A stretch of DNA of 64,000 bases from Bimuria novae-zelandiae CBS 107.79. Its lineage: Eukaryota > Ascomycota > Dothideomycetes > Pleosporales > Didymosphaeriaceae. The stretch lies in contig ML976664.1 in the NCBI GenBank assembly GCA_010015655.1, forward strand, positions 1,172,166-1,236,165, written 5' to 3'. Below are positions 9,757 to 52,046 of this stretch, one piece after another (position 1 is the stretch's first letter; each line of letters begins with the position of its first letter). The position numbers and the translations under genes were made by a program. The notes under the pieces are model-generated. The model was not told the origin of the DNA. It ran no database searches and saw nothing but the letters and a program-made list of their open reading frames with translations.

Positions 9757-10608
9757 TACCGTAGCTTGGCAGTTGGCGCGCCGCGTCACCGAACGCACCA
9801 CCCCACCATGATCGCTCGGCCAGCAACATAAGGCTACTAAGCCACCCATAATTAATATTATCACGAGATTTTATATAGTTAAAGTCTCTTAAGTTTATAG
9901 GTAATTACTATTAAATTAAATTATAGATATCTGCTTAGTTTTAGATAATATAACTACTACCTATTTATAAAGTAAATATAGTAGCTAAGGCTTTATTAAT
10001 ATCTATAGTCTTATGCTAAAGCAATTTTTTCTTAATAAGCCTATTAAGAGGCCTTAATAGCTTTTTATTGCCTTATTTAAATATTTTAATATATTTTTAA
10101 TATTAATTTTATATCATACAGGCCTATTACTTTACGCGTATATTTTTAGTAATTACTTAAGTAATAGGCCTTTTTAAAGTAGACTTATTTTAACATACTA
10201 ACCAGTCTAATAGGCTTTTACTTACTTACTTTTTTAAAACTATAGTTACTACCTTTTAGTATTAATAATCGCGGGCCTGCTATATGCTATAAATTAATTA
10301 AAAAATAGTTTTACTATAATACTTATTTAACTAATTAAAAAATAAAGACCTATTTTACTTTAAGTAATTTTTTTTATATTATTAGAGCCTTTTATAGGCC
10401 TTTATTATTATACTTTAAAAGTTACGTTTATATAAAAATAAAATATATAGTTTAACTTAGTAGTTTAACCTTAATAATATCCCTGATATTAATAATAGCT
10501 TTTAGTAGCTAGTTAATTTAACTCTAATCTAAAGTACTAAGAACTAAAGTTAAGCTTTTTTATAATTTTTGCTTAGGTAGCTAAGCCTAATTAAATCTAT
10601 TAAGGATA

Positions 10609-12622
10609 ACGTATTTGGCAAGCGAGCGGCCCACCCCCACTAACTTTATGTAACGCTTCACCTACCAAATATAATAGCTCCACTAGCTATAGCTCGATCA
10701 CCCTATAACAAAGCAGATGTCTTCTTAGCTATCTCTACTATTTAATGCGACCACATATAAAGTGTATAATAGACTATATAAATATATAGCGTTCTTTAAA
10801 TAATAGTATAATAACAACGTGATAGAATTACTATATAACGCGATTATACGCCTAGCTTAAAGAAGCTTATAAAGCTATAAGAGGAAGTAATTACTAGGCA
10901 TATACTTAACCTAGATTTGCGAGAATTTCCGCTCACGAGAGATTCTATGCGAGATATGTATAATGAGGTAAGCGTCCTGCTTACTAAACCAATATTATGT
11001 GACTTCCCCACTGTACCAAAAGGTACGTACAAGAATACCAAAGCTAGTGTATTCTTGTATAGTATAATATATATGAGTAATATTAGAGCTAGTGTTTGAT
11101 TCTAGCTTCTATAAGCGAGTCGCCACGTGTCCCTTTGCATACCACGTGCTATCGTTATAATATAATAGATAAGCTACTCGCTAAGGAGGCGCTAGCAAGG
11201 TTGGCGAAAAGTAGCTATATAACTTTGTTAAGTAAATAGATAGCTTTACTATATAATTTAATTAACTATATAATTAATAGAGAGCTTTATATAAAGATTT
11301 AGAAACTATTAGAGCTTAGTTTAACCTTATATCGTGCACGAAGGCCATCTATAGTATTTATAATAAAAATACTTATTACTTTAATATAACTAGCTTTATA
11401 CTAGGAAGAATATCAGCTTAGATTATTATTATAAACTTAAAAAGATAAGGAAGACTAAAGGCTATCTAGCTAAGTAATTATAAGTAGGCTTAGTAATCTA
11501 TAAAATTAGTACTATAAACTAAGTAATTTTACCTTTTATTATCTTTCCTAGCTAGTATTACCTCTCTATCTAGTAACAGGATAATAATATACTATATAAC
11601 TAGGCTTTTACTATTAGTAATAATAGCGAGACTACTAATAAGCTTAAAGTAAAGTAGCTAAGATATTTTATTAGGTATATAGTAGAGCGTAGGATAGACG
11701 CGCGCTAGCTACTTATATTTAATAATTTTAAAAGCTTTATAAAGAGAATAATTTTTATACTTTTTATATACTATTTTATTTATTATATCTTTTATAGCTA
11801 TTTAATATTAATTATTTTTCGCTATTAAAGCGCGCATATAGCTACTAGATTAAAAGCTTAATATATAACTATATTAGCTATATTATAAAATTAGAGTTCT
11901 TACTATCCTTTTACGTAGCCTATAAGTAGTTAATTATAAAGGAGAATATTTACGAGAGCTTTTAAGACGCTAGCCTAGTATTACACGATCTAGAAATAGT
12001 AATATTAAAGCTTAATATTAAGTTTTGTACGCTAACGCTACTTTTCTTATAAAAAAACTTTATAAAAACTAAAATACCAAGTAACGTGGGCAAGCTAGAA
12101 ACTTAGATAATATTAATTTATAATAAAATTTAAAATTATAAAAGCTTATTACTCACTTTTATTATTAAGAAGTTCAATTAGCTCAAGAAGGACTTTATAA
12201 AGGTAATATATAAAACTACGTTAATACGCAATTAAATTAAAAGTCTAGAGAAGGCTAATAAGGCTACTATAATATATACAAAGTAAAAAAGAAAATAAAT
12301 ATAGTAGTAAGACACTCTAATAAAGGTAGAATTAAAAGAAATTATTACTTAAAAAACGCTAAGTAGTAGGTAGAGAGTAAAATACATTAGGATAAGGCGT
12401 AATTAGATACTAATTAGTAGGCTTTAACACGCTATAGTTACTATAAGAAGACTAGTTTTAACGTATAAATATATAAAAAGAATACTATAGATACTATTTA
12501 ATCTATTATAGTAATTACACACTATTATCTTATTATGTTATTAAGATAGGTCGCTGTAAAGGCATAAGAAGTTAGTGGGATGGGCCGCTCGCTTGCCTGG
12601 GCCGCTCGCATGCCGAACACGT
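10609..12622 (+). mobile_element. Element 2: Fot1-type transposon nested in element 1
   Basis: Terminal inverted repeats contain the unit gcgagcggccca, once on the left and twice on the right, and are flanked by TA at 10607-10608 and 12623-12624. It belongs to the same family as element F (48244-50095). Remnants of transposase read on the plus strand around 10870-10960 (EEVITRHILNLDLREF, a Fot1 helix-turn-helix region). Otherwise AT-rich and broken. A 205-bp insertion (10961-11165) interrupts the transposase; without it the element is about 1.81 kb. Confidence 0.8.
10961..11165. mobile_element. Small unclassified insertion in element 2
   Basis: Alignment with the related element F shows continuous transposase sequence (gatatggcggataagctac) where element 2 has gatatgta, then 205 bp, then tagataagc. 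The insertion is flanked by TA on both sides, but I see no clear terminal inverted repeat. It contains two CACGTG-like motifs near 11124 and 11142. Probably a MITE-sized element or a fragment. Confidence 0.45.
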
Positions 12623-12949
12623 TAAGTATTATATTTAGTGGAAAAACATTAATAGTTTTAAAGGCCTAACGTATTAGTAGTTACCTTATAATATCAATCT
12701 CGGCTTTTTTTAAATAGTCTAATAAAGTCCCTCTTAGTAATACAAGCTAGTTTCTAAATATTTTATAAAAAGGCTAATAGCTTATTTAGATACGCTATTA
12801 ATAAAAACTTAAAAACGCAGATATCTAGAGGCTATAATATATAAGTTAAATAAAGTAGATATATAGCTAACGTGAGCGGTAAGCGAAATGATCGGGTAAG
12901 CGAAATGATCGGATAAGCGAAATGATCGGGTAAGCGAAATGATCGGGTA

Positions 12950-14752
12950 CTCGCCCCACACGCCAACCGGAGGTTGGCCCTGCGCAGCCCAACGTAACTT
13001 CGCAGCCTAACGTAACTTTTTATCGCGGATTTTTCTATTTTCTTAATAAACAACATATAACTATGCCTAAATATTATAGCGAGAGCTATAAAATTAAGCA
13101 GCGTATCTCTAATTATCTCTCTAGTTTTTCTAGCTTAGAAATACCTAATTNNNNNNNNNNNNNNNNNNNNNNNNNNNNNNNNNNNNNNNNNNNNNNNNNN
13201 NNNNNNNNNNNNNNNNNNNNNNNNNNNNNNNNNNNNNNNNNNNNNNNNNNNNNNNNNNNNNNNNNNNNNNNNNNNNNNNNNNNNNNNNNNNNNNNNNNNN
13301 NNNNNNNNNNNNNNNNNNNNNNNNNNNNNNNNNNNNNNNNNNNNNNNNNNNNNNNNNNNNNNNNNNNNNNNNNNNNNNNNNNNNNNNNNNNNNNNNNNNN
13401 NNNNNNNNNNNNNNNNNNNNNNNNNNNNNNNNNNNNNNNNNNNNNNNNNNNNNNNNNNNNNNNNNNNNNNNNNNNNNNNNNNNNNNNNNNNNNNNNNNNN
13501 NNNNNNNNNNNNNNNNNNNNNNNNNNNNNNNNNNNNNNNNNNNNNNNNNNNNNNNNNNNNNNNNNNNNNNNNNNNNNNNNNNNNNNNNNNNNNNNNNNNN
13601 NNNNNNNNNNNNNNNNNNNNNNNNNNNNNNNNNNNNNNNNNNNNNNNNNNNNNNNNNNNNNNNNNCTTTATTACTAGTATACAAATACGGCGCTGCCTAA
13701 TAGCTATATAATCGCTATATTAATATTAGGATACGCTAATAACTCTATCTTAATAAAGTAGCTAAAGTTCTTTAAAATATAAACGCGCGCGCGCTAAAAA
13801 GGCGCATAGTAATTACTTATATTTAATAGATTTAGTAGCTACCTTACTATCGAGTTTATATAGTTCTGTAATAATTATAAGATACTCCCCTTCTTACTAT
13901 TACTATATTTATCACATTATCTGCAGCCTCTAGACATCGTCTGTTTTTAGCTATTAAAGCAGAATTATAAAAAGGCTATAGAGATGGCCACCCGAACTGG
14001 CTACACAGACTTTAACAAAGTCGAATTTCTACATGCAATCTATAGGATTAGGATAGATATATTCAAGCGCAGCACAATCCTAAGCGCCTAAGAGAAAGCT
14101 AGGATCTTTTTATTTAATCTAGAGCTTGTTTACATGAAGCTGCTAGCACCTATCCAGACGCCATCCCTATTAGTTCTATCCGCTGTTGATTCGAGCCCTA
14201 TCGCCAATACACCTACAGCATATTAGCGGCAGCATCAAAAAATGTCGCGCGCCCTAGAGAGAAGTAATATATCAAGCAGGAGGCTTACAAAATTCCTAGA
14301 AAGCTCGTAATTGCTAATTAATAGTCTCGCGCTGGCCTAGCGCGACCTTATAAATATTACTGTAGTAGCTTAACAACGCTAAAAAAGGTAGATTAAAGAT
14401 AAAAGGCTAGTATAAAAAGGTAGTATAGTAACCGTTAAAGCAGCGCGACAAGTAATTAGTTAATATATAAAGCTTAAGGCTTAAAAGGTTACTTAAAAGG
14501 CTATAAAAACGTATAAGGACGCCTACTTGCAGAGCCTACAAAATTAGCCTTAATAGGTCCTATCTCTTAGAGAGATGACTGTAGATCCTGCCCTACTTGC
14601 TACACCAACTCCACTGTATATTAGCCTATATAATTGAAGTCTACGCTGTTAAAAGACTGGATTAATTTCGATTCTCTATACAAAGTTACGTTAGGCTGCG
14701 AAGTTACGTTGGGCTGCGCAGGGCCAACCTCCGGTTGGCGTGTGGGGCGAGT
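12950..14752 (+). mobile_element. Element 7: Fot1-type transposon inserted into the left terminal repeat of element 3
   Basis: Inverted repeats of about 69 bp, starting ctcgccccacacgccaaccg, lie at both ends with TA outside (12948-12949, 14753-14754). Each contains an 18-bp direct repeat (cagcccaacgtaactt / cagcctaacgtaactt) and a palindrome, ccaaccggaggttgg. A plus-strand frame opens at 13063 (MPKYYSESYK). After the sequence gap, remnants of the DDE region and C-terminus follow (YLQPLDIVCF near 13920; TRTGYTDFNKVEFLHAIYRI near 13995). It sits exactly in a TA of the 17-bp repeat array of element 3. Confidence 0.82.
13151..13665. other. Assembly gap (515 N)
   Basis: A run of N inside the transposase of element 7. 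Open frames reading through it are meaningless. The true length may differ; the element spans 1803 bp with the gap as given, close to its relatives. Confidence 0.98.
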
Positions 14753-15616
14753 AAGCCAAATGATTACTCTGCCACGACCACACCTCTTCCTACTATCTAT
14801 CTTAATGTCTTAACAACCTAATCTTGAGTCGCTTTCTTATAAAGACAGGATTATCCTTGCCCTTTACGCTATGCAATCTAACGCATTAATAAGCTAGTGA
14901 TACGCTACTATAATTTATAATATTAATTAAAGTACTATTAGTAACTAACGCGCTAAAATAACTACCTAACGCGATTATTACGCTAACTTATTAAAACTTA
15001 GCAGGCTTAAAGAGGAGGCGGTTGTACAGCGTATAAGGAAGCTTGATGGGCGAGGGTTTGCCCTTACGCTTAGCTATGTACGTGAAATGGCCAACCAACT
15101 GCTAGCTACACGTGGAGGTGGAGAGGTTGGAGAGAAATGGGCTAGGAACCTGACCAGACGAAAGCCTGGGATCAAGTCTCAGATAACCAGGCAGCGCGAT
15201 CACCAGAGAGTCTTATGCAGCGATCCAGCTATTATCAGCCCCTGGTTTGACCTTGTGCGCAACGTTAAAGCCAAGTATGGTATCCTAGACCAAGATACAT
15301 ACAACTTTGACGAGACTGGCTTCCAGATCGGCGTTGGAGGGTCTGTCAAGGTGGTAACAGCGTCTAAGAGGCGTCTGAAACCACTACAGGTTCAGCCTGG
15401 GGACCGTGAGTGGGCAACGTTGATTGCTGCTATCAACGCTAGAGGCTGGCTAGTCCCATCCTTCTTTGTCTTCAAAGTAAAGCACCACGACCAGGCCTAG
15501 TACTACAACCCTAAAGATTGGAGGATTGGCGTTAGTCCAAATGGTTAGACAACAAATGAGCTTGGTCTTGCCTGGTTACACCACTTTATTCAGCATACAG
15601 AGGCCTAGACCGACTA

Positions 15617-17741
15617 CCGTGCCTTGGCAGTCAGTGCACCACGTCAGTCAGTGCACCACCCCACCATGCAACACTTCAACTTCAACGCGCCGCATCTCCA
15701 CCAATATGGATCCAATTGAAGCTGCGATTACAGCAATCGAATCACGAGAGCCAGGAGAATTTTTCTCATACAGACAAGTTACGAAAGAACATGGTGTTGT
15801 ACATACTACGTTAATACGTAGGCACCAACACGTCACGCAGGCGCGTGCAGCTGCCAACTCTACACGTTAAAATCTTAGCCTAGAACAAGAATCAGAGCTC
15901 CTACGATATATTAAACGCCTTACTAAGCGTGGCCTTCCACCTACATGGCAGATAATATAAAGCTTTGCCTCTACTATTGCTAAAAAGGAGGTTAGCCTAT
16001 TATAGGTTAATTGCTTCGTTAGGCGTAGCGCTGAATCCTTAATATCTCGATGAACGACTAGCATTAATAGCAACCGCCATAAAGCTAATTCCCTAGCTAA
16101 GTATAAACTCATTTTTAATCTTCTACAGCAAAAGATGGAGCAGTATCAAATTAAGCCTTAGTATACGTATAATATGGACGAAAAAGGCATCCTACTTGGC
16201 ATCACCTCCCGCTCAAAGAGGATCTTTGATAGGCCTCTGTATGAGAGCAAGGCTGTAAGGCAAGCTATCCAGGATGGCAGCCGTGAGTGGATATCGCTCA
16301 TCGCCTGTATATGCGCCGACGGATCTGCCTTGGACCCAGCTCTTATCTATTAGGCCACCTCTACAAACATACAATCAAGTTAGGTCGAGGATCTTAATCC
16401 TAAACACTATTAGGCCTTTATCACGGTATTAAAATCTAGCTAGTTAAGCAATTAAATAGGCCTTATATAGCTACGGTAAGTATTTAATCGCCTTATAAAG
16501 GCTAAAGCTAGATAATTATATTAACTATTAATCCTTAATAGTTATAGCTCTTATATTACTATAGATTTTATTAACTATTGCGATCGCAATAAGATCCTGT
16601 TAGCTATCTATCTACCTTATTTAACCTATACGTTATAGCCTCTTGATGTCTGTGTTTTTAAGCCTCTATTAACAGCGTATTTAAACAAGCTATTAGCCTT
16701 CCTATAAAACAGCCTAGGGATAGCCTCTATTGCTAAAAGAGACTTCTTTAGCCTATCCTAGAAGGCCTAGGTTAACACTATAAAGTAGCTATTAATCCTC
16801 TAGGCCTTTAAAGCTACTAGCATTTCCCCCCTAGATCTAACGACTATCTTTAATAGATTTAATTAGGCTTAGCCTCTTAAGCAATAATTATAAGAGAGCT
16901 TAACCTTAGTACTTAGCGTAATAGATTAGAAAAGATTAATTAGCTACTAAAGGCTATTATTAATACAAGGGGCAATAATAAGGCTAAGAAGCTAAAATAA
17001 ATAGTATACTTAATCTCTATACGAGCTTAGCTCGTAGAACATAAAAATTAAGGCCTATAAAAAGCCCTAACTATCTAAAAGAGACGCTTAAAGCGAGGCA
17101 GGCCTCTACCTTTTAATTAGCCTTATAAGGATTAAGGGGGATCTATTTTCTTATTACCCTATAGTATACAGCGGGCACGTAATTATTAATATAAAAAAAA
17201 TACTAAAGTGTAGTAACTATAGCTTTAAAAAAGTAAGTAAGTAGAGGCCTGTCAGGCTAGCTAGTAGCTTAAAATAAGGCTACTCTAGGAGAGGCGTATT
17301 ACTTAAGTAGCTACTAAAAATACACGCGCAAAGCAAAAGGCTAATAAAGCTATAAAATAACACCTTAAGTAATAGGCCTATAAAGTATAAAAGCAACTCT
17401 AGAATCGTATTAAATTATTTAAAAATGGTAATAAAAGAGCCTTAAAGCCTTTTAGTAGGCCTATTAAGAAAAAACAGCCTCAGCGTAAGGCTATAAATAT
17501 TAAAAAGGCTTTATTTATTATATCTGCCTTAAAGTCGCGCAGTAGCCAAACAATTAGAATACTAAGTAGATATTAATAATCTAAGTAGCTAGTAATTATC
17601 TATAGGCCTAGGAGACCTTAACTCTAGAAAATCTTGTAATAATATTAATTATAGGTGGCTTAGCAGCCTCATGTTGCTAGTTAAGCGATTTTGGTGGGGT
17701 GGTGCACTGACTAACGTGGTGCACTGACTGCCAAGGCACGG
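15617..17741 (+). mobile_element. Element 5: Fot1/pogo transposon, first of an abutting pair
   Basis: The 48-bp terminal inverted repeats start ccgtgccttggcagtcagtg, differ at one position and are flanked by TA (15615-15616, 17742-17743). They include a 17-bp direct repeat (cagtcagtgcaccacgt). The transposase starts at ATG 15706 (MDPIEAAITAIESREPGEFF, a psq-type helix-turn-helix N-terminus) and is soon broken by RIP stops. An undamaged patch at 16160-16350 keeps the first Asp motif, NMDEKGILLGI. Length 2125 bp. It interrupts element 3 between its two catalytic motifs. Confidence 0.9.
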
Positions 17742-17743
17742 TA

Positions 17744-19893
17744 CCGTGTCCGTGCGCGTGATGCGCCACTTCGCGTGATGCGCCACCCTCATCAAAACAA
17801 CAAAAGTTCAACACGCGATAACTCCACCAATATGGCCCCAATTGACGACGCGCTTGCAGAGCTAGAATCACTAAAACCTAAAGAGGACTTCTCCTATAGA
17901 AAAATTGCTGCCAAGTATAGCGTTGTACGATCTACGTTAACCCGAAGGCACCAGGGTCTAGTACGTCCTACTTAGGCTAAGAACGCCAACTAGCAAAAAC
18001 TCACCCTATAGTAAGAGCAGGAGCTTATACGATATATTAAAAGCCTTATAAAGAGATATATACCTCCTACTAGAGAAATAATACGGAATTTTACCTTTAT
18101 AATAGCGAAAGAGCTAGTTAGCGAGAGCTAGGTTATCCGCTTTATTAACTAGCATAGTATTTATCTTATATTACGATAGATAGTCGGGATAGATAGCAAT
18201 TACTATAACGCTAATTCAGTAGATAAATATTACTACTTTTTTAACTTTTTATATAGTAAGATAGGTTAATATCGTATAAATCCTTATTATATTTATAATA
18301 TAGATTAGAAAGGCTACCTAATTAGTATTATAAGTAAATTAAAGAGGAAATTTAGCAGATAAATATAAGAGAAAAGGGAGGTTAGAGTATTACTTTAAAA
18401 TAGTAATTACGTATAGATTACGCTCCTAGTATATATTTACGCTAATAAATTAGCTTTACTACTAAGCCTTATCTATAAGGCTACTAATAAGGGTATCTAA
18501 TTAAGATAGGTAGAGGATATTAAGGTAGGGTATTATAAAGTCTTTATTACCTTATTATTCTCTAGCTTAATAAATAATAATATTAGGCTTGCCTAGCTTA
18601 AATAGATGTTTAATTCCTATATAAAAGAGAAGACTTAATAATTATATTAACTTTTAAATATAAATAGCTATAAACTTTATATTACTATAAACTTTATATT
18701 ACTATAAACTTTATATTACTATAAACATTATATTACTATAAACTTTATTAATTATTATAATTAAAATAAGATCTTACTTACTATCTTACTTTCTTATTTA
18801 AATTATATGCTTTAGTTACTTAACGTTATAATATTTAAGCCTCTATTAATAGGCCACTTGGTAGAGGAATTATAATATCTTTAAAAAAGCTAGGGCCTAG
18901 CTTTTATTACTAAAAGTAGCTTTTTCCTCTTATTTTAAAATACGTAAAAAGACTCTTTTAAGGAATTAACTATCTTTAACTTTTTTAAAATAATAGGTAT
19001 ATTATTACCTAGTCTTAATTTTATCCTTAATAGGTTTACTTATTATTAAGAATTAGGCAATAGCTCTTTATTAAGGCTTAATAATTATAACTAGAGAAAG
19101 ATAGATTGGCTTATATACTTTATAGTTAAGAATTGGGATAGTAAAGATACGTAGAAGTTTTATTAGTTACTTTATTATCTTTTCGTGTAAAATAAGCTGC
19201 TCTAGCATAATAACAATAGGCTAAGGTAGGCGCTATTAATAAAATAAAAGCGTAAGAAAAAGGGCAAGACTCTGGATTTTTAATAGTATTAAAATTATTA
19301 TAATAGATTAGTCCTTTAGTTACTAAGGAAGATAAGGGAGGCAAATTTTATTAATTTATTAAAAAGTAAAAAGATAAGTAGTAGTAGCTTTAAAAAGTAA
19401 AATTAGTAGAGCTAAAGAAGGTAGCTAAGCTATATAAAGAGAAAATATAGCAGGAAAAGCGTGCTGCGTGAGAGGTAGCTAAGAAGGCGAAGGATAAGGA
19501 GAGGGCTAAAAAGGCAGCTTAGCGCGCTGTCCAGAAATCTGCCTGCAACGTAGAAAAAGCTCTACAATTATCCTAAAAGAGTGAGAAAAAGGCCTCTTAG
19601 CTAGCACTACTGAGCAGAAAGCGTCAGAAACGTGTTATTAATACTATAGATATTAGGGAGGCCTTAGAGGGCATATTTACTATCCTAACTAAATCTACAC
19701 GCAGCGGCCGCAACATTAAGCTTTTAAATAGATTTAAATAGTGTAAATTAATAGCTAGGATTAATATAGTGCTACTCTAAAAAATGCTATAATAATACTA
19801 ATTATAAGTAGCTTTATAGCTTTATTTTGAGTGAGCTGCTTTTAATAAGGGTGGCGCATTACGCGAAGTGGCGAATCACGCGCACGGACACGG
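17744..19893 (+). mobile_element. Element 6: Fot1/pogo transposon abutting element 5
   Basis: The terminal repeats start ccgtgtccgtgcgcgtgatg and contain two copies of the 17-bp unit gtgatgcgccacttcgc. The element shares the single TA 17742-17743 with element 5 and ends before TA 19894-19895. The transposase starts at ATG 17832 (MAPIDDALAELESL...FSYRKIAAKYSVVRSTLTRR) and is stopped after about 47 codons by RIP mutations. Around 18660-18745, a 17-bp motif (ataaactttatattact) is repeated several times. It belongs to the same family as element D. Confidence 0.88.
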
Positions 19894-20502
19894 TACTTAT
19901 TCTTGATGGCCATGAGAGCCATAAGTCGCTGCTGTTCCAGGGTCTGTGCGAGAAGAACAGGATTATTACCCTTTGCATGCCTCCTCACGCCTCACATATC
20001 CTACAGCCGCTCGATATAGGTTGTTTTGCCCCATTGAAGCGGGCGTACAAAGAGGAAATCAGAGTCTTGGCAAACTGCCACATCAACCACATCGACAAAA
20101 AGGCCTTCCTTGCTGCCTTCCAGCAGGTATACGAAGGAGCTCGTTTTTTTTAATTCTGCACCCGACTTGGCATGTGGGGCACCCTATCAGAAATGCGACT
20201 CCCTTATTAAAACGTACATAAATCGCACAACGCTTAGGTAAATAGATATTACGCCTTTAGATATTAGACTTTAAGGCTTAAATTTTATATATATAGACTT
20301 TTTCAAGTGTTAAGGCTTACTAGGGGGTCTTAGCTATTATAGAAGTTATTATTCTTGCTATATATAATAAGACGCTAAATAATCTTAAAGATATAATTAA
20401 TTTACTTATTAATCTATTTAATAGGTAGATTTTCCTACTATTATTTTTATTAACATTAGTATTTATCCTTATATGTAGATTGTGGCATCTCTTTAGTAAT
20501 AT

Positions 20503-20750
20503 TGTCCGATTACATGGCCCTTTGCACACACGAAGGTAGCTGGCGCAACCCTATACAAAGAGACTTTGCCAGTAGTCCGGTTTATCCGCACGATTCCGGG
20601 CGGGATAAAGGGCGACTCTCCTTACTTAATAGAAATAGATTAGCGTCTTAACGTAAGACGTAAGGATAAAAGAGCCTTACATTCTTACAAAGACATAACA
20701 TAAGAATTAATTACTTTTCTATCTTATTAAAAACACCTTTTAATTTAATA
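20503..20750 (+). repeat. 5' LTR of the Copia element
   Basis: It begins TGTCCGATTACATG and ends AATA, a mutated form of the AACA end of the 3' copy. All differences from the 3' LTR that I could see are C/T or G/A transitions. Confidence 0.9.
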
Positions 20751-25628: not shown

Positions 25629-25876
25629 TGTCTAATTACATGACCCTTTGCACACACGAAGGTAGCTAGCGCAACCCTACACAAAGAGACTTTGCTAGCA
25701 GTCTAGTTTATCCGCACGATTCCAGGCGGGATAAAGGGCGACTCTCCTTACTCAACGGAAATAGATTAGCGTCTTAACGTGAGACGTAAGGATAAAAGAG
25801 CCTTACATTCTTGCAAGGACACAACATAAGAATCAATTACTTTTCCATCTCATCAAAAACACCCTTTAATCTAACA
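25629..25876 (+). repeat. 3' LTR of the Copia element
   Basis: It begins TGTCTAATTACATG and ends CTAACA, followed by the target duplication AATAT. It is preserved better than the 5' copy at most differing sites. Confidence 0.9.
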
Positions 25877-28313: not shown

Positions 28314-28912
28314 GGTAATATTAAGTAGGATATCTTTCTTATCTATATTATAAATATTTTAAGCCTTAATCTAATACGACTCTATTTTCTATTATAAGAT
28401 GTTAAAGTAAAACTTATATTTAGCTAGTAAATTAGCTTTATAATAATTGCTGTTAATACTAAGTATTTATTATAATATTAGGGGTTTAGCGTAACGCTAG
28501 ATAAAGTAATTAACTTATAATAAGCTAATATTTTAAACTACTACAGAGGCAAAACTTTATATTATTTACTATATAAGAAAAAGACTACGTTTAGTAAAAT
28601 GCTTAATATATTATAAAAGCTCTTATTTTTACTATTAGGTAATATTAGGTAATATTTTAATTATATTATATAAGAACTTACTGCTAGCTAATAACGTATT
28701 TATACTAGCGCGTTAATATAAATTATATAATACTAAATTCTTTTATAATTTTTTAATATAAGAAAGTTTTTTTTAGTTTTTATAACTTAATTACTTCTAT
28801 CGCGGCCGTAATTGGGTCTGTATTGGTGGAGATGCAGCGCATTGAAGTTGGGGTATTGCATGATGGGGTGGCGCGTTCGGTGACGCGGCGCGCCAACTGC
28901 CAAGCTACGGTA

Positions 28913-37919: not shown

Positions 37920-37965
37920 TCACAACTGTGCATCCACAAATCGCATGCTTTGTGCACGGAAGGTA

Positions 37966-40092: not shown

Positions 40093-40147
40093 TACCGTGT
40101 CTGTGCGCGTGCCGAGCCACTTCGCGTGACGAGCCACCCACGCGGTA

Positions 40148-41567
40148 AACGAAAAATCGCGCACACCAAACTAGATGAGTCAGCTTTTTGTCACCCATAC
40201 ATTTGCCCTACAAAGTCGAAATTCGAGCCATATTAAATCGATTTCGACGCTAAATCGCACCGTGAGGCTTGCTTTATATGTAGATCTGTATATATATAAC
40301 TTTTGTTTAGTGTTAAGCTTAATAACCTGTAATTTCTCTGCTAGAGTTATAGTAGTCTTGCAGCCTTTGCGGCATGCTATTAACACGCTTATTTATAAAC
40401 TTTTAGCTAATTAATTACTAGCCTTTAATTACGAGGTCTCTTATTTTAAAGACGTCTTAATAGGGAAACCTTTTAAGATACTGCTTTAGAGGCTGCCAGC
40501 AATTTTCTATAAGTACTAAATTAGGTAAGTGTGTATAGTTAAAGTAAGACTTTAAGCTATAAGTTTTCTTCTAATTATAAATAATATTATTAGAGGATTT
40601 ACCTATCTTATAGCTAGAGTTGTTATCTTCCTTTAGCACGAAGTCGTCGCCGCGTAAAATCTATAGCTTAATAATACGCTTAAGGATCGCGTCGCGGTAT
40701 ACCTTAAAGCTTATCTTGCTATTTTTATTACCTAAGATATTATAAAAGTATAAGTTGCTTTTAAAATTAAAGCCTATAGTAGCCTATAAGTGCTAGCGCT
40801 CTAGAGTCTTCTCGTCGTTGTAATTTAATATATATTATATATAATTGCGATAGTAGCGCTCTCTAGGTTTTCTAATAATCCTTATCTTGCCCTTAGGCCC
40901 TATACTCTAGTGTACCTTGTTAGAGAAGCGTACGCGGCGCTAGTCCTTCTTATTAAGGTACTTTTTAAGCATAATAGTAGAGTACTTAACGCGGAGCTTT
41001 ATAACGCGCTAGGAGACCTAGCCTTTATTATAAGTAACGCATTTTAAGTAATATATAGTGTAAAGATGCTCCTTAAGGGTCTTGCCGCTAACGCTAAGAT
41101 CTAATTTATATGCTAGCTACTTCTATGTAAGGACGCGGGCGTCCTATTCTAGGTCTTATAAATACTTATTAGCACGCTCTAGGTCCTCTAAAGATAGCTT
41201 TAAGGGTCTGCCGCGCTTCTCCGCCGTTAATATACTATTATAATAGGTCCTATTAGCCTCTATATTGTCCTTAGTAAGTATCTCCCAGCCCCGGCGGCGT
41301 TTCACGCCGTAATAGCTAAAAATATCGTTATAATAGTAGGGTATGCGGCGGAAATCTATAAACTTATAGGCACCTTTAATCCGCGACTTTTTTAGCGTGT
41401 TTAAATAGGGGTTATTAGGTAATTAGGCTATCTAATTAATTACGTAGCAAAATATTATTGTAAAGTAGTATAGCGTGTGGAGTTTTATTTTTATGTAAAA
41501 AGGTGGCTGCAGAGTGTTGCATGGCGGGGGTGGACTAGCGTTGTTTTAGTGTGCGCGATTTTTCGTT
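40148..41567 (-). mobile_element. Element C: Tc1/mariner-type transposon nested in B
   Basis: The terminal repeats start aacgaaaaatcgcgcacac, are flanked by TA (40146-40147, 41568-41569) and give a 1420-bp element. Minus-strand remnants of a fungal Tc1/mariner transposase are readable: GVKRRRGWEILTKDNIEANR (near 41290), SNKVHW-like and KGKIRIIRKPRERYY (near 40880), and GDDFVLKEDNNS (near 40640), the second catalytic Asp region. AT-rich, with many stops. The uninterrupted target in B reads ccacgcggtaccgcgtgcc. Confidence 0.82.
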
Positions 41568-43610
41568 TACCGCGTGCCACCCAACACCATAACAGCTCGT
41601 GCAAGAATAGGGCTATAGAGCCAGCCACGATTGATTTTATCACGAGATTTTCTAGCGAAGCACTATATCGATCCTTGCGATTAATTTGCACTATTTATAT
41701 CTATCAGGAAGCTTGACATTGCGGCCCCGGCGTGTCGATCTAGTTGGGGTGGTAGATGCGCCCTCTGAGGCCTCCCCAACATCTAGAGCATCAACACCAC
41801 GTTTCTGACGCTTTCTGCTTAGTAGAGATGGCTGAGAAGCTTTTCTCTTACTCCTTTGGGATGGCTGTAGAGCTTTTTCTGCGTCGTAGGCAGGCTTCTG
41901 GGCAGCGCGCTAAGCTGCCTTTTTAGCTCTCTCTTTCTCCTTCGCCTTCTTAGCTGCCTCTCGCGCAGCACGCTTTTCCTACTACATTTTCTCCTTATAT
42001 AGCTTAGCTGCCTTCTTTAGCTCTACTGCCTTTACTTTTTAAAGCTACTACTACTTATCCTTCTACTCTTTAATAGATTAACAAATATTTGCCTCCCTCG
42101 TCTTCCTTAGTAACCAGAAGACTGATCTACTATAGTACTCTTAACGCTATTAAAGATCTAGAGTCTTGCCCTTCTTCTTACGCTTCTGCTTTATTAATAG
42201 CGTCTGCCTTAGCCTATTATTCTCATGGTGGAGCAGCTTATTTTAGGCAGATAGGTGGTAGAGCGATTAACGAAGCTTCTATATATCTTTACTACCCTAA
42301 TCCTTAACCGTAGATTGTAGAAGCCTATCTATCTTTCTTTAGTTATAATTACTAAGCCCTAATAAAGAGCTATCGCCTAGTTCTTAATTATAGGTGAACC
42401 TATTAAGGATAGGATAAGGATTAGGTGACGATATACCTATTATTCTAAAAGAGCTAAGGATAGTTAATTCCCTAAAGGAGGCCTTCCACGCATTCTAGAA
42501 TAGGGGGAAGAAGTCGCCTTTAGTGATAGAAGCTAGGCCTTAGCTTCTATTAAGGTATTGTGATAGCTCTGCTAAGTAGGCTATTAATAGAGGCTTAAAC
42601 ATTGCAACGTTAAGTAGCTAAAGCGTATAAGTTAAATAGGGAGGCAGGATAGTAAGCAGGATCCTATTCTAATTATAATAGTTAATAAAGTCTATAGTAA
42701 CATAAGATCCGTGGCCATCTATAATTAAAAGTTAATATAATCGTCGAGTCTTCTCTTTTGTACAGCGATCGAACACTTGTTTAAGCTAGGCAAGCCCGAT
42801 ATCGTTGTTTGTCCAGCCAGAGGGTAATAAGGTAATAAAAACTTCATGATATCCTGCCTTGATATCCTCTACCTAGCTTGATTGAATGCCCTTGTTGGCA
42901 GCCTCATAGATGAGGCTTGGCGGTAGAGCTGATCTATTAGCGCAGATACATGCCAGGAGCGTAATCCACGCGCGATTACTATCCTAGAGTAATGCCCTAA
43001 CCTCCTTCTTCTCCTATATTCGTTTGCTAAATATCCTCTTTGATTTACTAACGATACCGATTAGGCAGCCTTTTTTATCTATATTATAAATATAACGAGG
43101 ATCTATGCGATATTAATCTATCTTGCTATGTAAAAGGTTAAAAAAGTAGTAATATTTATCTACTAAATTAGCGTTATGGCGATTGCTATCCATCCTAACT
43201 ATCTATCGTGAGATAAGATAAATGCTGTGTCGGTTAATAAAGCGCGTAACCTAGCTCTCGCTAACTAGCTCTTTCGCTATTATAGAGGCAAAGTTCCGTA
43301 TTATCTCTCTAGTAGGAGGTGTATGTCTCTCTGTAAGTCTTTTAATATATCGTATAAGCTCCTCCTCTTGTTGTGGGTTAAGTTTCTGCTGGTTAATATT
43401 CTTGGCTTTATTTGGGGCCTGAACGCGCTTGTGTCTTCGGGACAACGTAGTCCTATCAACACCATAGGTAGCAGCTATTTTTCTGTACGAGAATTTTTCT
43501 CCTAGATCTAAAGATTGAATAGCTTCAATCGCATCTTCAATTGCCGCTATATTGATGGAGTTACGACGCGTCAAAGTTAGGGAGTCATTCAGTCGTTTGG
43601 TGTTGGGTGG

Positions 43611-43702
43611 CTCGGCACGCGAAGTGGCTCGGCACGCGAAGTGGCTCGGCACGCGAAGTGGCTCGGCACGCGAAGTGGCTCGGCACGCGAAGTGGCTCGG
43701 CA
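43611..43702. repeat. Six tandem 17-bp units in the right end of element B
   Basis: The unit gaagtggctcggcacgc is repeated without spacer (first copy partial), followed by gcacagacacgg at the element end. The inverted left end has only two copies, the second altered. This is probably an array of transposase binding sites. Confidence 0.88.
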
Positions 43703-43719
43703 CGCGCACAGACACGGTA

Positions 43720-45820
43720 CCGTGTCCGTGCGCGTGATGCGCCGGTTCGCGTGATGCGCTACCCTTATTAAAAACAGTTTATGTAAAAACGAGGCTATTA
43801 AGCCACCCACAATTAATATTATTATAAGATTTTCTGGCGGAGTATGAAGTTAATAGCTGCGATTAATTTGCACTATTAATATCTATCTAGAAGCTTGACA
43901 TTGCGGCCGCGGCGCGTAGAGATCGCTGGGGCGGCAGATACGCCCTCTAAGGCCTCCCCAGTATCTAGAGCATTAACAACACGTTTCTGACGCTTTCTGG
44001 TCTGTAGAGGTGCCTGTAAGGCCTTCCTCTTACCCTTTTAGGGTAGTTGTAGAGCTTTTTCAGCGTCGCGGGCAGACTTCTGGGCGGCGCGCTAAGCTGC
44101 CTTTTCAGCCCTCTCCTTCTCCTTCTCCTTCTTAGCCTCCTCCCGCGCAGTACGCTTTTCCTACTAAATCTTCTCCTTATATAGCTTAGCTGCCTTCTTT
44201 AGCTCTACTTTATTTACTTTTTAAAGCTGTTGCTCCTTCTCCTCCTGCTCCTTAATAGATTGACGTGTACGTGCCTCCCTTACCTTTCTAGGTGACTAGA
44301 AGACTACTCTACTATAATACTCTTAGCGCTGCTAGAGGTCTAGAGTCTTGCCCTTCTTTTTACGCTTCTACTTAGTAAATAGTACCTGCTTAATCCTATC
44401 TATCTCATGCTTAAGTAGCTTATTTTAAACAGATAAGTAATAAAGTAATTAGCGTAGCTTCTTAGTATTATAACTACCCTAATCCTTAACTACTAATCGC
44501 ACTAGCCTATCTATCTTTCTTTAGTTATAATTACTAAATCCTGATAAGGAGCTATTGCCTAAGTCCTAATTATAGGCGAACCTATTAAGGATAGGAGTAG
44601 GATTAGGTGGTGATATACTTATTACTCTAAATAAGCTAAGGATAGTTAATTCCTTAAAGGAGGCCTTCTATGCATTCTAGAATAGGGGGAAGAAGTTACC
44701 TTTAATAATAGAAGCTAGAGCCTGGCTTCTATAGAGGTGTTTTAAGAGCTCTACTAAGTAGGCTATTAATAGAGGCTTAAACATCGCAATATCGAGTGGC
44801 TAAAGTGTATAAGTCGAATAAGGTGGCAGGATAGCAAGGAGGATCCTATTTTAATTATAATAATTAATAAAATCTATAGTAATATAGGATCCATGGCTAT
44901 CTAAGACTAGGAGTTAGTATAATCGTTAGGCCTTCTCTTTTGTACAGCGATTAAACACCTGTTTAAGCCAGGCAAGCCTAATATCGTTGTTCGTCCAGCT
45001 AGAGGATGATAAGGTAATAAAGACTTCATGTTCTCCTGCCTTAATATCCTCTACCCAGGTCGATTAGATGCCCTTGTTGGCAGCCTCATAGATAAGGCTT
45101 AGTGGCAGAGCTAATCCATCAGCGCAGATATATGCCAGGAGCGTGATCCATACGCGATTACCATCTTAGAGTGATGCTTTAACCTCCTTGTTCTCCTATA
45201 TTTATCTGCTAAATATCCTCTTTAATCTACTAATAATTCTAATTAGGAAGCCTTTTTCATCTATATTATAAGTATAACGAGGATCTATCTTATATTAATT
45301 AATCTTGCCATGTAGAAAGTTAAAGTAGAGGCGATATTTATCTTCTAAATTAGCTTTATAGCGATTGCTATCCATGCTAATTATCTATTAAGAGATAAGA
45401 TAGGCACTGTATTAGTTAATAAAGCAAGTAACCTAGCTCTCGCTAACTAGCTCCTTTACTATTATAGAGGCGAAATTCTGTATTATCTCCCTAGTAGGAG
45501 GTAGGTGTCTCTCTATAAGTCCTTTAATATATTATACAAGCTCCTCCTCTTGCTATAGGGTGAGTTTTTACTAGTTAGTGTTCTTAACCTATGCAGGGCG
45601 CACTAGACCCTAATGCCTTTGGGTTAACGTAGATCGTACAACACCATACTTGGCAGCAATCTTTCTGTAGGAATATTCTTCTCCAGGTTCTAGCGATTCT
45701 AGCTCTACAAGCGCGTTATTAATTAGAGCCATGTTGGTGGAGTTGTCGCGTGTTAAAGTTTGGGTAATTTAATAAGGGTGGCGCATCACGCGAACCGGCG
45801 CATCACGCGCACGGACACGG
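43720..45820 (-). mobile_element. Element D: Fot1/pogo transposon in the abutting array
   Basis: The ends begin ccgtgtccgtgcgcgtgatg, with two 17-bp units (gtgatgcgccggttcgc). TA flanks 43718-43719 and 45821-45822 are shared with B and E. The minus-strand transposase N-terminus (ALINNALVELESLEPGEEYS...YRKIAAKYGVVRSTL) is at 45600-45735. Same family as element 6. Length 2101 bp, heavily RIP-mutated with GC patches, for example near 45060-45180. Confidence 0.88.
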
Positions 45821-47508
45821 TACCGTGCCGCGACAGTCAGTGCGCCGCGACAGTCAGCGCGCCACCCCAACATGATTGCTCGGCCAGCAACATGAGGCTA
45901 CTAAGCCACCCACAATTAATAATATTATAATATTTTCTGGATTTAGGGTTACTAAAGACTGTAAATAATTATTAGCTACTTAAATTATTAATATTTATTT
46001 AGTATCTTAATAATTTAGCCTCTGCGCGACTATAAGGCAAAAGTAATAAATAAAGGCTTATTAATATCTATAGCCTTACGCTAAGGCTATTTTTTTTTTA
46101 AAAAAAAATTATTAAAAGACTTTAAGGCCTTTTTTTTTTCTTTTTAAATAATTTAATATAATTCTAGAGCTACCTTTATACCTTATAGGCCTATTATTTA
46201 AAGTATTATTTAATAGCTTTATTAGCCCTTTACTTTACGCGTATATTTTTAATAATTATTTAAGTAACACGCTTCTCCTAAAGTAGTCTTATTTTAAGTT
46301 ACTAATTAGCCCGACGGGCCTCTACTTACTTACTTTATTAAAGCTATAATTATTACACTTTAGTATTTTTTTATATTAATAATTATGTGCCTACTATACG
46401 CTATAAGGTAATAAAAAAATTTCTCTACTATAATACTTATCTAGCTAAGTGAAAAGTAAAGGCTTATTATACTTTAAGCTTTTTTTTTCGTTACTGGAGC
46501 CTTTTATAGGCCTTTATTATTATGCTTTAAAAGTTACTTTTATATAAAATTAAGTATACTATTTAACTTAGCACTTTAGGCTTATTAGTACCTTTTATAT
46601 TAATAGTAGTCTTTAGTAGCTAATTAATCTTTCTCTAATTTAAAGTGCTAAGTCCTAAAGTTAAGTTCTTTTATAATTATTACTTAAATAGCTAAGCCTA
46701 ATTAAATTTATGAAAGATAGTCGTTAGATCTAAGGGGGAGGTACTAGTAGCTTTAAAAGCCTAAAGTATTAATAGCTACCTTATAGTATTAATTTAAACC
46801 TTTTAGAATAGGCTAAAAAAGTCTTTCTTAGTAATAAAAGCTAGCCCCTAGCTATTTTATAGAAAGGCTAATAGCTTATTTAAATATGTAGTTAATAGAG
46901 GCTTAAATATATAAATATCTAGAGGCTATAATGTATAGGTTAAATATAGTACATAGATAGCTAACCGGATCTTATTATAATTATAATAGTTAATAAAATC
47001 TATAGTAATATAAGATTTATAGCTATTAAGAAATAATAGTTAATAGAATTATCTAGTTTTAGCTTTTATAAGGTAATTAAATACTTATTATATCTATATA
47101 AGGCCTATCTAATTACTTAAATTTAGATATAGTAATAAAGACCTTATAGTATTTAGGATTAAGATCCTCGACCTAACTTAATTATATATTTATAGTGGTA
47201 GTCTAATAAATTAGAGTTAGATCTAGGACAGATCCGTCGGCGTATATATAGGCTATAAGCGATATCCACTTACGGCTGCCATTCTAGATAGCCTGCCTCG
47301 CAGCCTTGCTCTAATACAGGGGTCTATTCAAGATCCTCTTTAAGCGGAAGGTAATGCCAAGCAGGCAGCCTTTCTTGTCTATATTATGTATATACTAAGT
47401 CTCGATCAAATACTACCTAATATTTTGCTATAGAAGCTTAAAGTAAAGCCTATATTTAACTAAGGAATTAGCTTTATAGTAATTACTATTAATACTAGCT
47501 ATTTATTA

Positions 47509-50175
47509 CGAGCTTAAAGAACCTAGACTATAGTACTACTATAACTAAAAATAGATAGGGGGAGGTGGATAATATTATACTACAGCTAGCCTGCGAGGAC
47601 TCGCGAGGCCACTTAAGTTAGTAAGGGTTACGTAATCACGATCCGCTAAGAACTAGCTTTAATGCTAGATTAAATATAATCCGCTAAGAAAGAGGACAAT
47701 CGTTAAATTACTTAAAAATAAAAAATTAAATAAACTAGTATATAATATAATAATTCTTCTAATATTTTTTTCCTTATAGTTAACTTATATATCTTCTGTG
47801 TGAGTACGTTCTCTTATATAGACTAATAGTTATTTTATTCTTATAAGATTAGGTTATATAACTACGCTGTCACGGTAACCTCCTAGGCAACCTGACAGCC
47901 TAGACATACTGTCAACGACAGTATGTCGATAGACGGACGAGAGTTAGAAGCTAGGCTTCTACCTCTAAACTTGTACTTCGGGAGCCAAAGGTCTGATGGC
48001 CTATACCCCGAAGCTTACTTCTAATTAGTTAGACACGACGCTAGCCATCTAGGTACTAGCACCTGGCCAAGCGAGATAGATAGATCCACGTTGGATAGGG
48101 GCAGAAGACCTTTCTTCCTTATCCAACGTCTTGTACCTACACGTAGATACCGAACGCAGTATATCGATCTAGCCTACCTAGGCCCAGACATCTCTACGCG
48201 TTGGTCTCGTGACATACGCGCTACGTTGTCGCATTAACTTGTAACGTGTTTTATAAGCGAGCGGCCCATACAAGCGAGCGGCCCACCCTACCAACTTTTT
48301 ATACCTTTACAGCAACCTATCTTAACAACACAATAAGATATTAGTATATAATTGCTATACTAGATTAAATAGTATCTATAATATTGTTCTTACATGTTTG
48401 CATGTTATAGCCAGTCTTCTTGCAGCGGCTGTAGCGTGTTAAAGCCTACTAATTAGCACCTGATCGCGCCTTATCTTAACGTATTTCTACCTCTATCTGC
48501 TACTTAATATCCTTTTAAGCGATAATCTTCTCTGCTTCTGCCTTTATTAAGGTACCCTGCCTCTAGATCCGCTTCTTTTTACGCTATTTACGCGTTATAG
48601 CGGCCTTATTAGCCTTCTTAAGCCTCGCGATCCGATCGCGTATAAGCGTACTTTCGTGAGCTATTACCTTAGCGCCCTTTTTAAGCTAATTAAGCGCTAT
48701 AATAATAAAAGGAAGTAATAAGCTCTTATACCTTTAAATTCTATTACGAATTAATATTAATTAAGCTTCTAGCTCGCGCGCGTTACTTAGTGTTTTAGCT
48801 TCTTAAAGGGTAACCTTTAGTAGAGGCGGCGTTAGCGTATAAAGCTTAATACTAAGCTTTAATATTACCGCCTCTAGGTTATATAGGACTAGGCTAGCGC
48901 CTTAAAAGCTTGCGTAGATATTTTCCTTTATAATTAACTACTTATAGGCTGCGTAGAAGGCTAGTAAGAACTCTAGCTTCGTAATATAATTAATATAGTC
49001 GCGCATTAGGCTCTTAATCTAGTAGCTATACGCGCGCTTTAACGGCGAAAAGTAGTTAATATTAAGTAGCTATAAGAGGTGCAACGAATGTGGTGGCATA
49101 TAAAAAGTATAGATATTATTCTCCTTATAGAGCTTTTAAAATTCGAGCGAGTTATAGCTCTTATAGCTATTAAGTATAAGTAGCTAGCGCGCGCCTACCC
49201 TATACTTTACTATATACTTAATAAAGTGCCTTAGCTACTCTACTCTAAGCTTATTAGTAGTCTAGCTATTATTACTAACAGCGAAAGCCTAGTCGCGCGG
49301 TATATTATCGTCCTGGTACTAGGCAGAGAGGTAATACTAGCTAGCGAAGATAATAAAGGGCGGGATTGCCTAGCTAGTAGCGCTAATTCTATAGATTGCT
49401 ATAGTCTACCTATAATTGCCTAGCTAAATAGCCTTTAGCCTGCCGCGTCTCTTTAAGCCTGTAATAACAAGCTAAGATAATATCTTGCCTATTATAAAAC
49501 TAGTCTAGTTAAAGTTATAGGTATCTTTATTATAGATACTATAGGTAGCCTTTATGTGCGCTATAAGCTTAAACTAAGCTCTAATAGCATCTAAATCCTT
49601 ACATAGAGCTCTCTGCTAATTATATAGTTAATTAAATCGTGTAGTAAGATAATCTATTTGCTTAATAAAGTTGCGCGGCTACTGCTTACTAACCTATCTA
49701 GCGCCTTGCTTAGCGAGTAGCTTATCCGCCATATCTTGCACAGCACTTAGCGTGGGCAGAAATCTTCGCGAATCTAGGTTAAGTATATACCTAATAATTA
49801 CCTCCTCTTCTATCTTAGTAAGCTTCTTTAATTTAGGCTAGTAATTACGTTACGCAGTAATTCTAGCGCATTAGCGTTAGAGCGTTATTTAGGGGATAGT
49901 AAATATATATACTACACCTCTTATAAACTAAATTTAGTTTTAATTAATAGCTAAGATTGCAAGGTGTATATTAGCCTTAGTAGAGGCTAGTTAGGCCTAA
50001 ATTAGGGGCGCCATAGTAGGTAGAAGTTTATATGCTGCAAAAAGTTGGTGGGGTGGGCCGCTCGCTTGTATGGGCCGCTCGCTTATAAAACATGTTATTA
50101 CTAAATAATCCGTGAGACGCCTTATCACCTTACTACCTTAACTTAGACTAGACTAAGCGAGAGCACCTTATAACA
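47509..50175. mobile_element. Unclassified insertion in E, about 0.8 kb plus nested element F
   Basis: Element 1 has one copy of tatttatta where E has ctatttatta on both sides of this segment (47499-47508 and 50176-50185), so it is an insertion with a 9-10-bp target duplication. Excluding F, it is about 815 bp. The part at 47870-48240 is GC-normal, begins tgtcacggtaacc, and contains a palindrome catactgt/acagtatg and a second inverted pair (gttggataggggcaga / tatccaacg). I see no coding frame and no clear terminal inverted repeat; a solo LTR or a Mutator-like element is possible. Confidence 0.55.
48244..50095 (-). mobile_element. Element F: Fot1-type transposon nested in the insertion within E
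   Basis: The inverted repeats begin acgtgttttataagcgagcg and contain two 17-bp-spaced copies of gcgagcggccca. TA flanks are 48242-48243 and 50096-50097. Minus-strand transposase, readable through stops: EEVIIRYILNLDSRRF and QDMADKLLAKQGAR near 49700-49800, NKDTYNFN near 49540 (first Asp motif), and a degenerate zinc knuckle near 48410. Length 1852 bp. Same family as element 2. Confidence 0.85.
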
Positions 50176-52046
50176 CTATTTATTATAATATTAAAGATTT
50201 AGCGTTACGCCTAATAAAGTAATTAACTTATTATATAAAAATATTTTTTTTTTAGTAATAGTAAAGGTAAAGCTCTATAGGATTCGCTATATAAAAGGAA
50301 GGCTACGTTTAGTAAGGCATTTAATATATTATAAAAACTCCTTTTTTATTATTAGCTAAGATTTTAGTAACTTTAGTAAAGATTTAGTAAGGTATATTTA
50401 GCGCATCTATACTAGCGCGTTAATATAAATTATAAAATACTAAACTCTTTCGCGATTTTCCTTTATAAGGTTTCTCTAAGTCTTTGTAATTTAATTATAG
50501 TAATTACCGCCTTGATTAGGTCTATATTGGTGGAGATGCTGCGTGTCAAAGTTGGGGCGTCTTATTGTTGGGTGGCGCGCTGACTGTCGCGGCGCACTGA
50601 CTGTCTCGGCACGGTAGCGCAGTGCCGCTTGCACCTGCCGACTTTCCAAGGACTAAGTGAGCGGGATTTATCAAGACGTTGCAAGCGTCTCATAGCTCCT
50701 GAAATACGCCAGTCCGTTAACAGACGATGATGTCTCCTGAGCACAGGCATGTGCCTGTACTCGTCCTCCTCCTCGCCAGAGCTCTCTACCTCTGGTGTCA
50801 GGTATCTCTGCACGTCCACCACCTCCTCCACGGCCTTATTTTCACCCCTGCTAGCCTCTGCAGCCCTTAGAGGCTCGATTGCCTGCGCTAGGCGGAAGGG
50901 CGTAAGGCCTATTTTACGCTAGCTACTTTTAATTATATTTTCTTTAAACGCGCGCCCTCTAATTTATAAAAAAATTAATAAAAAATTAAAGTAATATATA
51001 TTAATAAAGCTTATATATAAGGCCTAGTTAAGTATCTAGCTATAATACTACTTTAGAAGCTAAAAATAGCCTATGTCTAAAAGCTATAAAAGGTAAGTTA
51101 TATATAAAAGGGAAAGCGTAAAATTATATTTAAAGACTTTTATAAATTTTTATAAATTTTGCTATTAAGTATAACTTATACTTATTTATAAAGAGTAGCC
51201 TTTAGGTCTATAGTAAAGTATTAATAGCTATTATCTTATTAAAGTGCTTGGTTTAGTTAATAGTAGTCTTATTATTAGTATAGCTACTATTAGTAATATT
51301 TATAAAATAATTATTAGGTAAACTAATTATTTATTACTATAAATTTATTTTTATCTTTATTATAAGTATAGGGAGGATTAATATACTAACTATAAAAATA
51401 TGCTTAGTAAGTAATATAAGCTTTTAATTTATTATAGTAGGTATTAAGACCTTTTACTTATATTTTATATATACGTAACTATCCTTTATAATACTAATTT
51501 AGATCTTAGTCTTATCTATATTATAAGTGTTTATATTTATAATTTTTAGGCGTTAATACGTTTTTTAAAACTTTTAAAACTATTTAAAAAGGGCATTTAG
51601 TAACTATACTAGCTTATAAGCTAAGTTAATTAGCTTTACTTTTATTTTATAATATTTTATATAGACTTTAAGTTAGTAAGATACCTAGTTAATACTAATA
51701 TATAGTAAGTTATTAGTACCTTTATATATTTTATAAGTAATACGTCTACCTACTACTACATGATCTCTCTTATAATACTAAATTTAACGTTATTAATCGC
51801 GTTATAAAAGTGTTTAAGGGCGAGGTCTTGCTTTATAAAGAGTCTCTTATTTATAAGAGGGCGCGTTAACTTATTATTATAGCCTTATAGGGCGCGATAG
51901 ACGCGCTAGCGCAGGTGGTTAATGCTACAATTCTTAAGGTATGCGGCAACGTTAGGTCGCGTTAACATGCGCAGCTCCGCAACGGCGTCGCTAACACTCT
52001 GACACTCGCCAGTGTACTGGGATACTTTGTTCTTGACTTTAGGCAT

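Follow-up and report, generated by a model that had tools for sequence, protein, structure and literature searches.

Why should transposons whose terminal inverted repeats (TIRs) differ in sequence carry direct repeats at one and the same spacing of 17 bp? The question is raised by a stretch of 64,000 bp of Bimuria novae-zelandiae CBS 107.79 (hereafter the window), which forms part of contig 9 of the 77.4-Mb genome. From these letters the original prediction had described 17-bp repeats at the ends of several Fot1 families. We matched its element numbers to the present ones through the unit sequences it quoted and their positions, giving the following features.

9757..28912: Element 1, with nested insertions; ends TACCGTAGC; weak 17-bp units at 9770-9803 and 28866-28899
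10607..12624: Element 2; left end with one unit (10620-10636), right end with two (12578-12611)
12868..27488: Element 3; left end with four units (12881-12948), right end with two (27442-27475)
15615..17743, + strand: Element 5; units at 15628-15661 and 17697-17730
17742..19895, + strand: Element 6 (w6); units at 17755-17788 and 19849-19882; box core GATGCGCCAC
17832..17987, + strand: HTH1 of Element 6 (HTH_psq type, decayed); the w6/wD/wB topology switch seen in transversion splits lies near its end, ~17973-18004
37964..40094, + strand: Element A; units at 37977-38010, the second box lacking 1 bp; right end likewise
40093..43719, - strand: Element B (wB); two units at 40106-40139, six at 43605-43706; core GCCGAGCCAC
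40139-41576: nested element interrupting Element B
43251..43715, - strand: open stretch in Element B that encodes HTH_psq and the beginning of HTH_Tnp_Tc5; both score above the Pfam cut-off
43718..45822, - strand: Element D (wD); units at 43731-43764 and 45776-45809; box core GATGCGCC
45821..50616: Element E, with Element F nested within; units at 45834-45867 and 50570-50603
48242..50097: Element F; units at 48255-48288 and 50051-50084

A scan of the whole window for local self-matches with a score of at least 10 gave 18 at lag 17 and at most 5 at each of the other lags from 6 to 60. Terminal repeats hold 15 of the 18 and the remaining three, at 11245, 18668 and 27519, are AT-rich; 20 shufflings of the window in 200-bp blocks gave 0-2 lag-17 matches (mean 0.5). 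Ten Fot1-like elements of the window share a common grid counted from the terminal TA, with a 13-bp tip, unit 1 at 14-30 and unit 2 at 31-47, and a lag-17 score of at least 10 was reached at 15 of their 20 ends. The 17-bp repeat is real. It is seen as predicted at the ends of elements 2, 3, 5, 6, B, D, E and F, and the weak form foreseen for element 1 scores 4 and 6 at lag 17. Element A, for which a plain 17-bp repeat had been described, does carry the repeat but in a mixed 17/16 register at both ends, since a 1-bp deletion in the second box leaves its first half in the 17-bp and its second half in the 16-bp register. The expectation of at least two units in every terminal repeat holds for one end of element 2 but not for the other, which has a single unit, and unit numbers are also unequal in element 3 (4 and 2) and element B (2 and 6). 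We rejected an 18-bp repeat at 12980-13018, which may be the one described for element 7, as a case of the 17-bp rule. Its host element (12948-14753) has another tip, and the repeat lies about 33-70 bp from the terminus, off the Fot1 grid, and is thus probably of another kind. The window elements are decayed, with a TpA/ApT ratio of 1.37-1.62 in four of them against 0.64 in a gene-like stretch, which fits the expected effect of repeat-induced point mutation (RIP). The named database relatives of their transposases belong to ascomycetes, for example Curvularia and Ascochyta, and the content of the window is fungal.

A first look at DDE_1 domains across the genome gave 2298 candidates, 150 of which were scored. 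Stretches of 5.5 kb were taken around the 40 best-scoring DDE_1 matches and a further 40 one-kb stretches at 5' ends were picked by hand for variety, so that neither set is a random sample. A TIR pair with a tip starting TA was found in 39 of the 40 long loci, the TIR of L037 being incomplete, and both these loci and the window ends show the TIRs of about 40-100 bp and the TA target site (TA or TAA) of Fot1/pogo elements. The tip motif anchored 29 of the 40 one-kb ends and left 11 unanchored (L052-L055, L060, L061, L065, L069, L072, L081 and L082), L054 and L065 yielding an end on the opposite strand. With the window ends included there were 34 end clusters, among which L050 was counted although its lag-10 repeat looks unlike a TIR. 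Of all lags from 8 to 40, 17 was the best in 25 of the 34 clusters, significantly so against shuffles in 23, while ends shuffled by mononucleotide pick lag 17 in 3.3% of cases. Without the four clusters that repeat a family already entered and the three families that the repeat itself had brought to notice, lag 17 was best in 20 of 27. A score of at least 10 at lag 17 was found at 23 of the 34 termini as against 1 of 196 element-internal windows. The autocorrelation against shuffled controls that the original prediction had proposed as a check gives a 17-bp peak both in the window and in the families of this genome. Two 17-bp direct repeats per TIR, the pattern of Trem, Aft1 and Tan1, are found here, the exceptions being L072 (18 bp), A (mixed), 1 (weak) and the one-unit ends. 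The period of 17 is a strong preference and no law, since the period of L072 is 18 bp at either end; four further places with L072's score and open frames, found among the PF03221 matches listed, may be more copies of the L072 type. The Fot1 DNA compared is that of this genome, and generality across species rests on published papers and database proteins; a scan of viral contigs confirmed no independent Fot1 elements.

The anatomy of the unit was read from an alignment of 31 ends, from which L050, w4 and L072 are absent; element A was also omitted, giving 30 families aligned gap-free from the terminus with the TA shared by construction. A T at position 6 is common to all 30 and the tips are mostly CGTG or GCT, the tip motif having also been used as anchor for the 29 one-kb ends. 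CAC is frequent at positions 26-28 and 43-45 from the terminus. At lag 17 the identity of units 1 and 2 is 77.5%; at the remaining lags between 8 and 30 it is 18-32%. Within families 13.17 of the 17 positions agree, compared with 6.78 (s.d. 0.48) after reassignment of unit 2 across families. The two units track each other at every one of box positions 1-15 (P <=0.0115 each) but not at position 16 (P 0.74) or 17 (P 0.087), and the repeated object is thus a 15-bp box with a 2-bp linker. Judged from the aligned sequences, the units of different families are homologous, and the period is inherited and retained while the core changes. The idea of a fixed spacing with changing sequence is upheld, but the units cannot be called unrelated in sequence, sharing as they do a grid position and residues, often CAC. 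Unit number varies in whole units in elements 2, 3 and B and in L010, L012 and L047; results of the unit counter for A, D, E, L009, L011, L022 and L027 are left out here (the threshold was strict and some window starts were shifted by at least 1). L010 and L012 have one-unit 3' ends with the same asymmetry in both, which suggests that two boxes at both ends may perhaps be dispensable.

The DDE_1 catalytic domain typical of Fot1/pogo elements is present in sibling copies of this genome, for example L027 and L040, and the decayed elements w6, wD and wB were assigned through their mutual DNA similarity and their similarity to L066, L067 and L071. N-terminal HTH_psq (HTH1) and HTH_Tnp_Tc5 (HTH2) domains both score above the cut-off in window element B, L027, L051, L057 and L040; in L066 HTH_Tnp_Tc5 lies above and HTH_psq below it. 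Two tandem HTH domains, a feature of the CENP-B-type DNA-binding domain (DBD), are thus seen in Pfam and in the helices of the predicted model, in agreement with the predicted pairing of a psq-type with a Tc5/CENPB-type HTH. For the full-length model no CENP-B was among the matches listed, the catalytic domain having filled the list, and the DBD was for this reason folded alone. Its top-listed fold match is CENP-B (1hlv), at modest scores and with 20-23% sequence identity to the model; a search of the PDB by sequence yielded no useful relatives.

The link between box and protein is clearest in the sibling families L066, L071, L074 and L076, in which HTH2 is 89-95% and the comparable part after it 81-97% identical but HTH1 only 42-56%. 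Their first boxes begin with CGCGT, followed by GATGCGCCAC, GCCGAGCCAC, AATGCCCGGA and AACGATCGGA respectively, and in each the second box has most of its core in common with the first. L067, with an HTH1 like that of L066 (42/52), has nearly the same core as L066. Among the 16 families that combine a readable DBD with an anchored end, box positions 1-5 correlate with HTH2 (partial r 0.57, P<0.0005) but not with HTH1 (-0.18), and positions 6-12 lean to HTH1 as a trend only (0.19, P 0.066). The proposed co-evolution of repeat and binding domain is supported by these data and sharpened, in that the core differs with HTH1 among siblings. Since both units change where mainly HTH1 differs, HTH1 would have to read both of them, and this in turn would require two protomers per end.

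HTH1 also stands apart at the DNA level. Between L066 and L071 synonymous divergence is 1.65 in HTH1, 0.17 in HTH2 and 0.05 beyond, and codons of conserved residues have changed in 15 of 27 cases in HTH1 versus 8 of 133 elsewhere (P=1e-8). Such an excess of synonymous change in HTH1 was found in 8 of the 10 pairs tested (P <=0.015); there was none in the pair with the same core (6/42 and 9/53) nor in L027/L029 (11/45 vs 39/172). RIP is a process of transitions and makes no transversions. Sites of transversion within bp 1-262 join w6 with wD in 47 cases and w6 with wB in 5, whereas within bp 263-1800 the numbers are 6 and 50; in the last 95 bp they are 7 and 2. Between bp 1801 and 2060, outside the test, 5 sites join w6+wD, 13 w6+wB and 10 wD+wB. 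This switch of topology has P=6e-18, with bins set after viewing the profile and sites treated as independent, and is located at the HTH1/HTH2 junction, about 17973-18004 of the window. Three further trios switch (P=1.4e-5, 3.7e-8 and 2.2e-14), but the four are not all independent, because the trio with P=1.4e-5 consists of other copies of the w6/wD/wB families and the other two share L030. In L018/L015/L030 the two ends (0/11/5 each) agree with each other and disagree with the body. For L027/L029/L030 a switch is seen in the HTH1 segment (16/3/9); the terminal segment is undecided (4/4/0), and the body is joined by the leader that follows (0/5/0) and by the final 66 bp (4/7/0). As the topology of transversions switches at the HTH1/HTH2 junction, the elements are mosaics. 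Where both ends go with HTH1, a single internal exchange of the body would require the fewest events. A pair of database proteins (P0022/P0031) shows identities of 58% in HTH1, 85% in HTH2 and 91% in the body.

Taken together our results lead us to propose, as the probable reading, that one CENP-B-like transposase binds each 17-bp box, with two protomers per end, and that HTH1 and the TIRs form an exchangeable cassette. Each unit would be a composite site of 15-bp box and 2-bp linker for one pogo/Fot1 transposase protomer. HTH2 most likely reads positions 1-5, the third of the box nearest the tip, and HTH1 the remaining positions, about 6-15. With two such boxes side by side and their distance to the cleavage end fixed, each end would load two protomers. 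The 17-bp period is in our opinion likely to be the footprint of the double HTH; this footprint would hold the spacing while the core shifts with HTH1 in both boxes and at both ends. Changes in the boxes appear to go together with changes in HTH1, one half of the DNA-reading part of the enzyme, and this half appears to be exchanged between elements like a cassette. We lean slightly towards the broader view that Fot1 transposons are two-part mosaics, in which a recognition cassette, made up of HTH1 and the four terminal boxes, has an inheritance separate from that of a shared body (HTH2 and the catalytic domain), internal recombination or gene conversion setting one body between different heads and ends.

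Other explanations of the period can be weighed against the same data. That it is an effect of chance or composition is scarcely credible, as we found no point in favour of it and it is countered by the shuffles of the window and of the 34 end clusters as well as by the element-internal windows. The period could instead be merely inherited, an ancestral tandem duplication being kept alike by slippage and conversion with no constraint from binding. Homology of the units across families and the whole-unit changes in number listed above fit such a history, but the spacing has been kept despite strong divergence of box positions 6-12, the box tracks between units when the 2-bp linker does not, the distant second end has the same or nearly the same core, and the core is linked to HTH1. 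We consider this explanation unlikely.

The two remaining alternatives concern the protein. The original prediction had a single protomer touching both repeats at constant spacing with one HTH module on each, and the presence of two HTH modules and two repeats at each end invites this reading. The repeats are alike, however, although the two HTHs are different domains, and both repeats change together in siblings that differ mainly in HTH1, so that we regard it as quite improbable. HTH1 might also simply evolve fast under positive selection, modules not being exchanged at all. In 2568 of 2775 database protein pairs its conservation is lower than that of the body, and in L027 and L029, whose HTH1 differs at only 7 of 52 residues, synonymous changes are not in excess, which means that point changes also occur. 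Yet synonymous changes and transversions rise too in 8 of the 10 pairs, and the topology switches at the HTH1/HTH2 junction in four trios, with the overlaps noted above; fast evolution of HTH1 as the whole explanation is therefore improbable.

How transposase and terminal repeats can change specificity jointly is an open question for cut-and-paste elements, since mobility should be lost when only one of the two changes. Dozens of Fot1 families in one genome offer apparent natural swaps, in which body and HTH2 are closely similar and HTH1 and both cores differ at the same 17-bp spacing, making the link between HTH1 and box directly testable with short domains and short DNA. If our hypothesis is correct, recombination would give elements with an unchanged engine and a new address, providing a route of escape from cross-mobilisation by non-autonomous relatives, and the HTH1/box pairs of one genome would form a natural library for deciphering the code by which psq-type HTHs read DNA. 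In our view it is the mosaic recognition cassette that is worth following.

Among known systems, Pot2 is said to have 16-bp repeats, and the Mos1 mariner transposase differs from Fot1 as seen here in its DNA-binding part and TIR layout. CENP-B is to our knowledge a centromere protein without the paired-box end of Fot1 elements. It nevertheless resembles them in its two tandem HTH domains (PDB 1hlv) and in its box, the ‘17-bp CENP-B box’, which is as long as the repeat period. The 17-bp repeat itself is already known in kind, and its supposed novelty in the original prediction does not stand. The accessible parts of PMC2836289 describe two 17-bp direct repeats in the TIRs of the Fot1-type/pogo elements Trem, Aft1 and Tan1 (43-49 bp TIRs in Trem), whose proteins have HTH, CENPB and DDE domains, and propose the repeats as HTH/CENPB binding sites. 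For Verticillium the available text of PMC3441728 gives internal repeats of 15-17 bp in DAHLIAE1 and, in DAHLIAE2, ends with three and two 17-bp units, which resemble the unequal unit numbers of our window elements. Available sections of PMC4188875 report that no such repeats were found in S. sclerotiorum, and those of PMC7386202 give the domain set of Fot transposases. Within the literature searched, to the extent that its text was open and with subscription journals mostly outside it, we found no HTH1-box link, module swapping or mosaic Fot1 elements. Siblings with a closely similar body but a different HTH1 and a different core in both boxes were not found in print within this scope either. 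Here the box core is compared with HTH1, a comparison that we did not find in the accessible text on DAHLIAE1 and DAHLIAE2. Set beside Trem, Aft1 and Tan1 as the accessible text presents them, the present genome adds about 30 families on one grid, a link between core and HTH1, and mosaic elements.

The terminal inverted repeats (TIRs) of the Fot1-like elements follow a grid counted from the terminal TA, with a 13-bp tip and then 17-bp units (a 15-bp box and a 2-bp linker) at 14-30 and 31-47. In three of the decayed elements of the window (2, 3 and B) we observed that the two ends differ by whole 17-bp units.

Units at the two ends of elements 2, 3 and B (window positions)
10620-10636, element 2, one unit
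12578-12611, element 2, two units
12881-12948, element 3, four units
27442-27475, element 3, two units
40106-40139, element B, two units
43605-43706, element B, six units

The 18-bp direct repeats at 12980-13018 and 14683-14721, which belong to a nested element with the tip CTCGCCCCACACGCC, lie off this grid. A different TIR (CACGCGGTAAACG...) is also carried by a nested element located at the second box of element B (40139-41576), flanked on each side by CCACC, and a lag scan of the whole window detected no 17-bp repeat at its ends. Nested in elements 1 and 3 is a decayed, retrotransposon-like stretch (about 20500-25900) with similar ends, ATTACATGGCCCTTTGCACACACGAAGG and ATTACATGACCCTTTGCACACACGAAGG. 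The interior of element 6 holds an AT-rich tandem array (18668-18748), distant from the element's ends, whose period happens to be 17 bp as well.

Several Fot1 elements stand end to end and have their terminal TA in common, an arrangement that possibly reflects insertion into the TA at the tip of another element.

Common terminal TA of adjoining elements (window positions)
17742-17743, elements 5 and 6
40093-40094, elements A and B
43718-43719, elements B and D
45821-45822, elements D and E

Elsewhere in the genome, one end of the Fot1 locus L036 (about 3860-3907) showed the 16-bp TIR tip TAAGCTAGCCGATACG in three consecutive copies.

The first helix-turn-helix of the transposase (HTH1) has the motif I/V-D-R-x-T-L, with Asp, in three families (L057, L071 and L076), and all three have GA at box positions 9-10 despite their different bodies. 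This pairing could be a piece of a reading code, yet L009, without the Asp, has GA or AA there.

Two separate insertions, L010 and L012, are asymmetric in the same way: the 5' end carries two units and the 3' end a single unit, suggesting that elements of this type moved.
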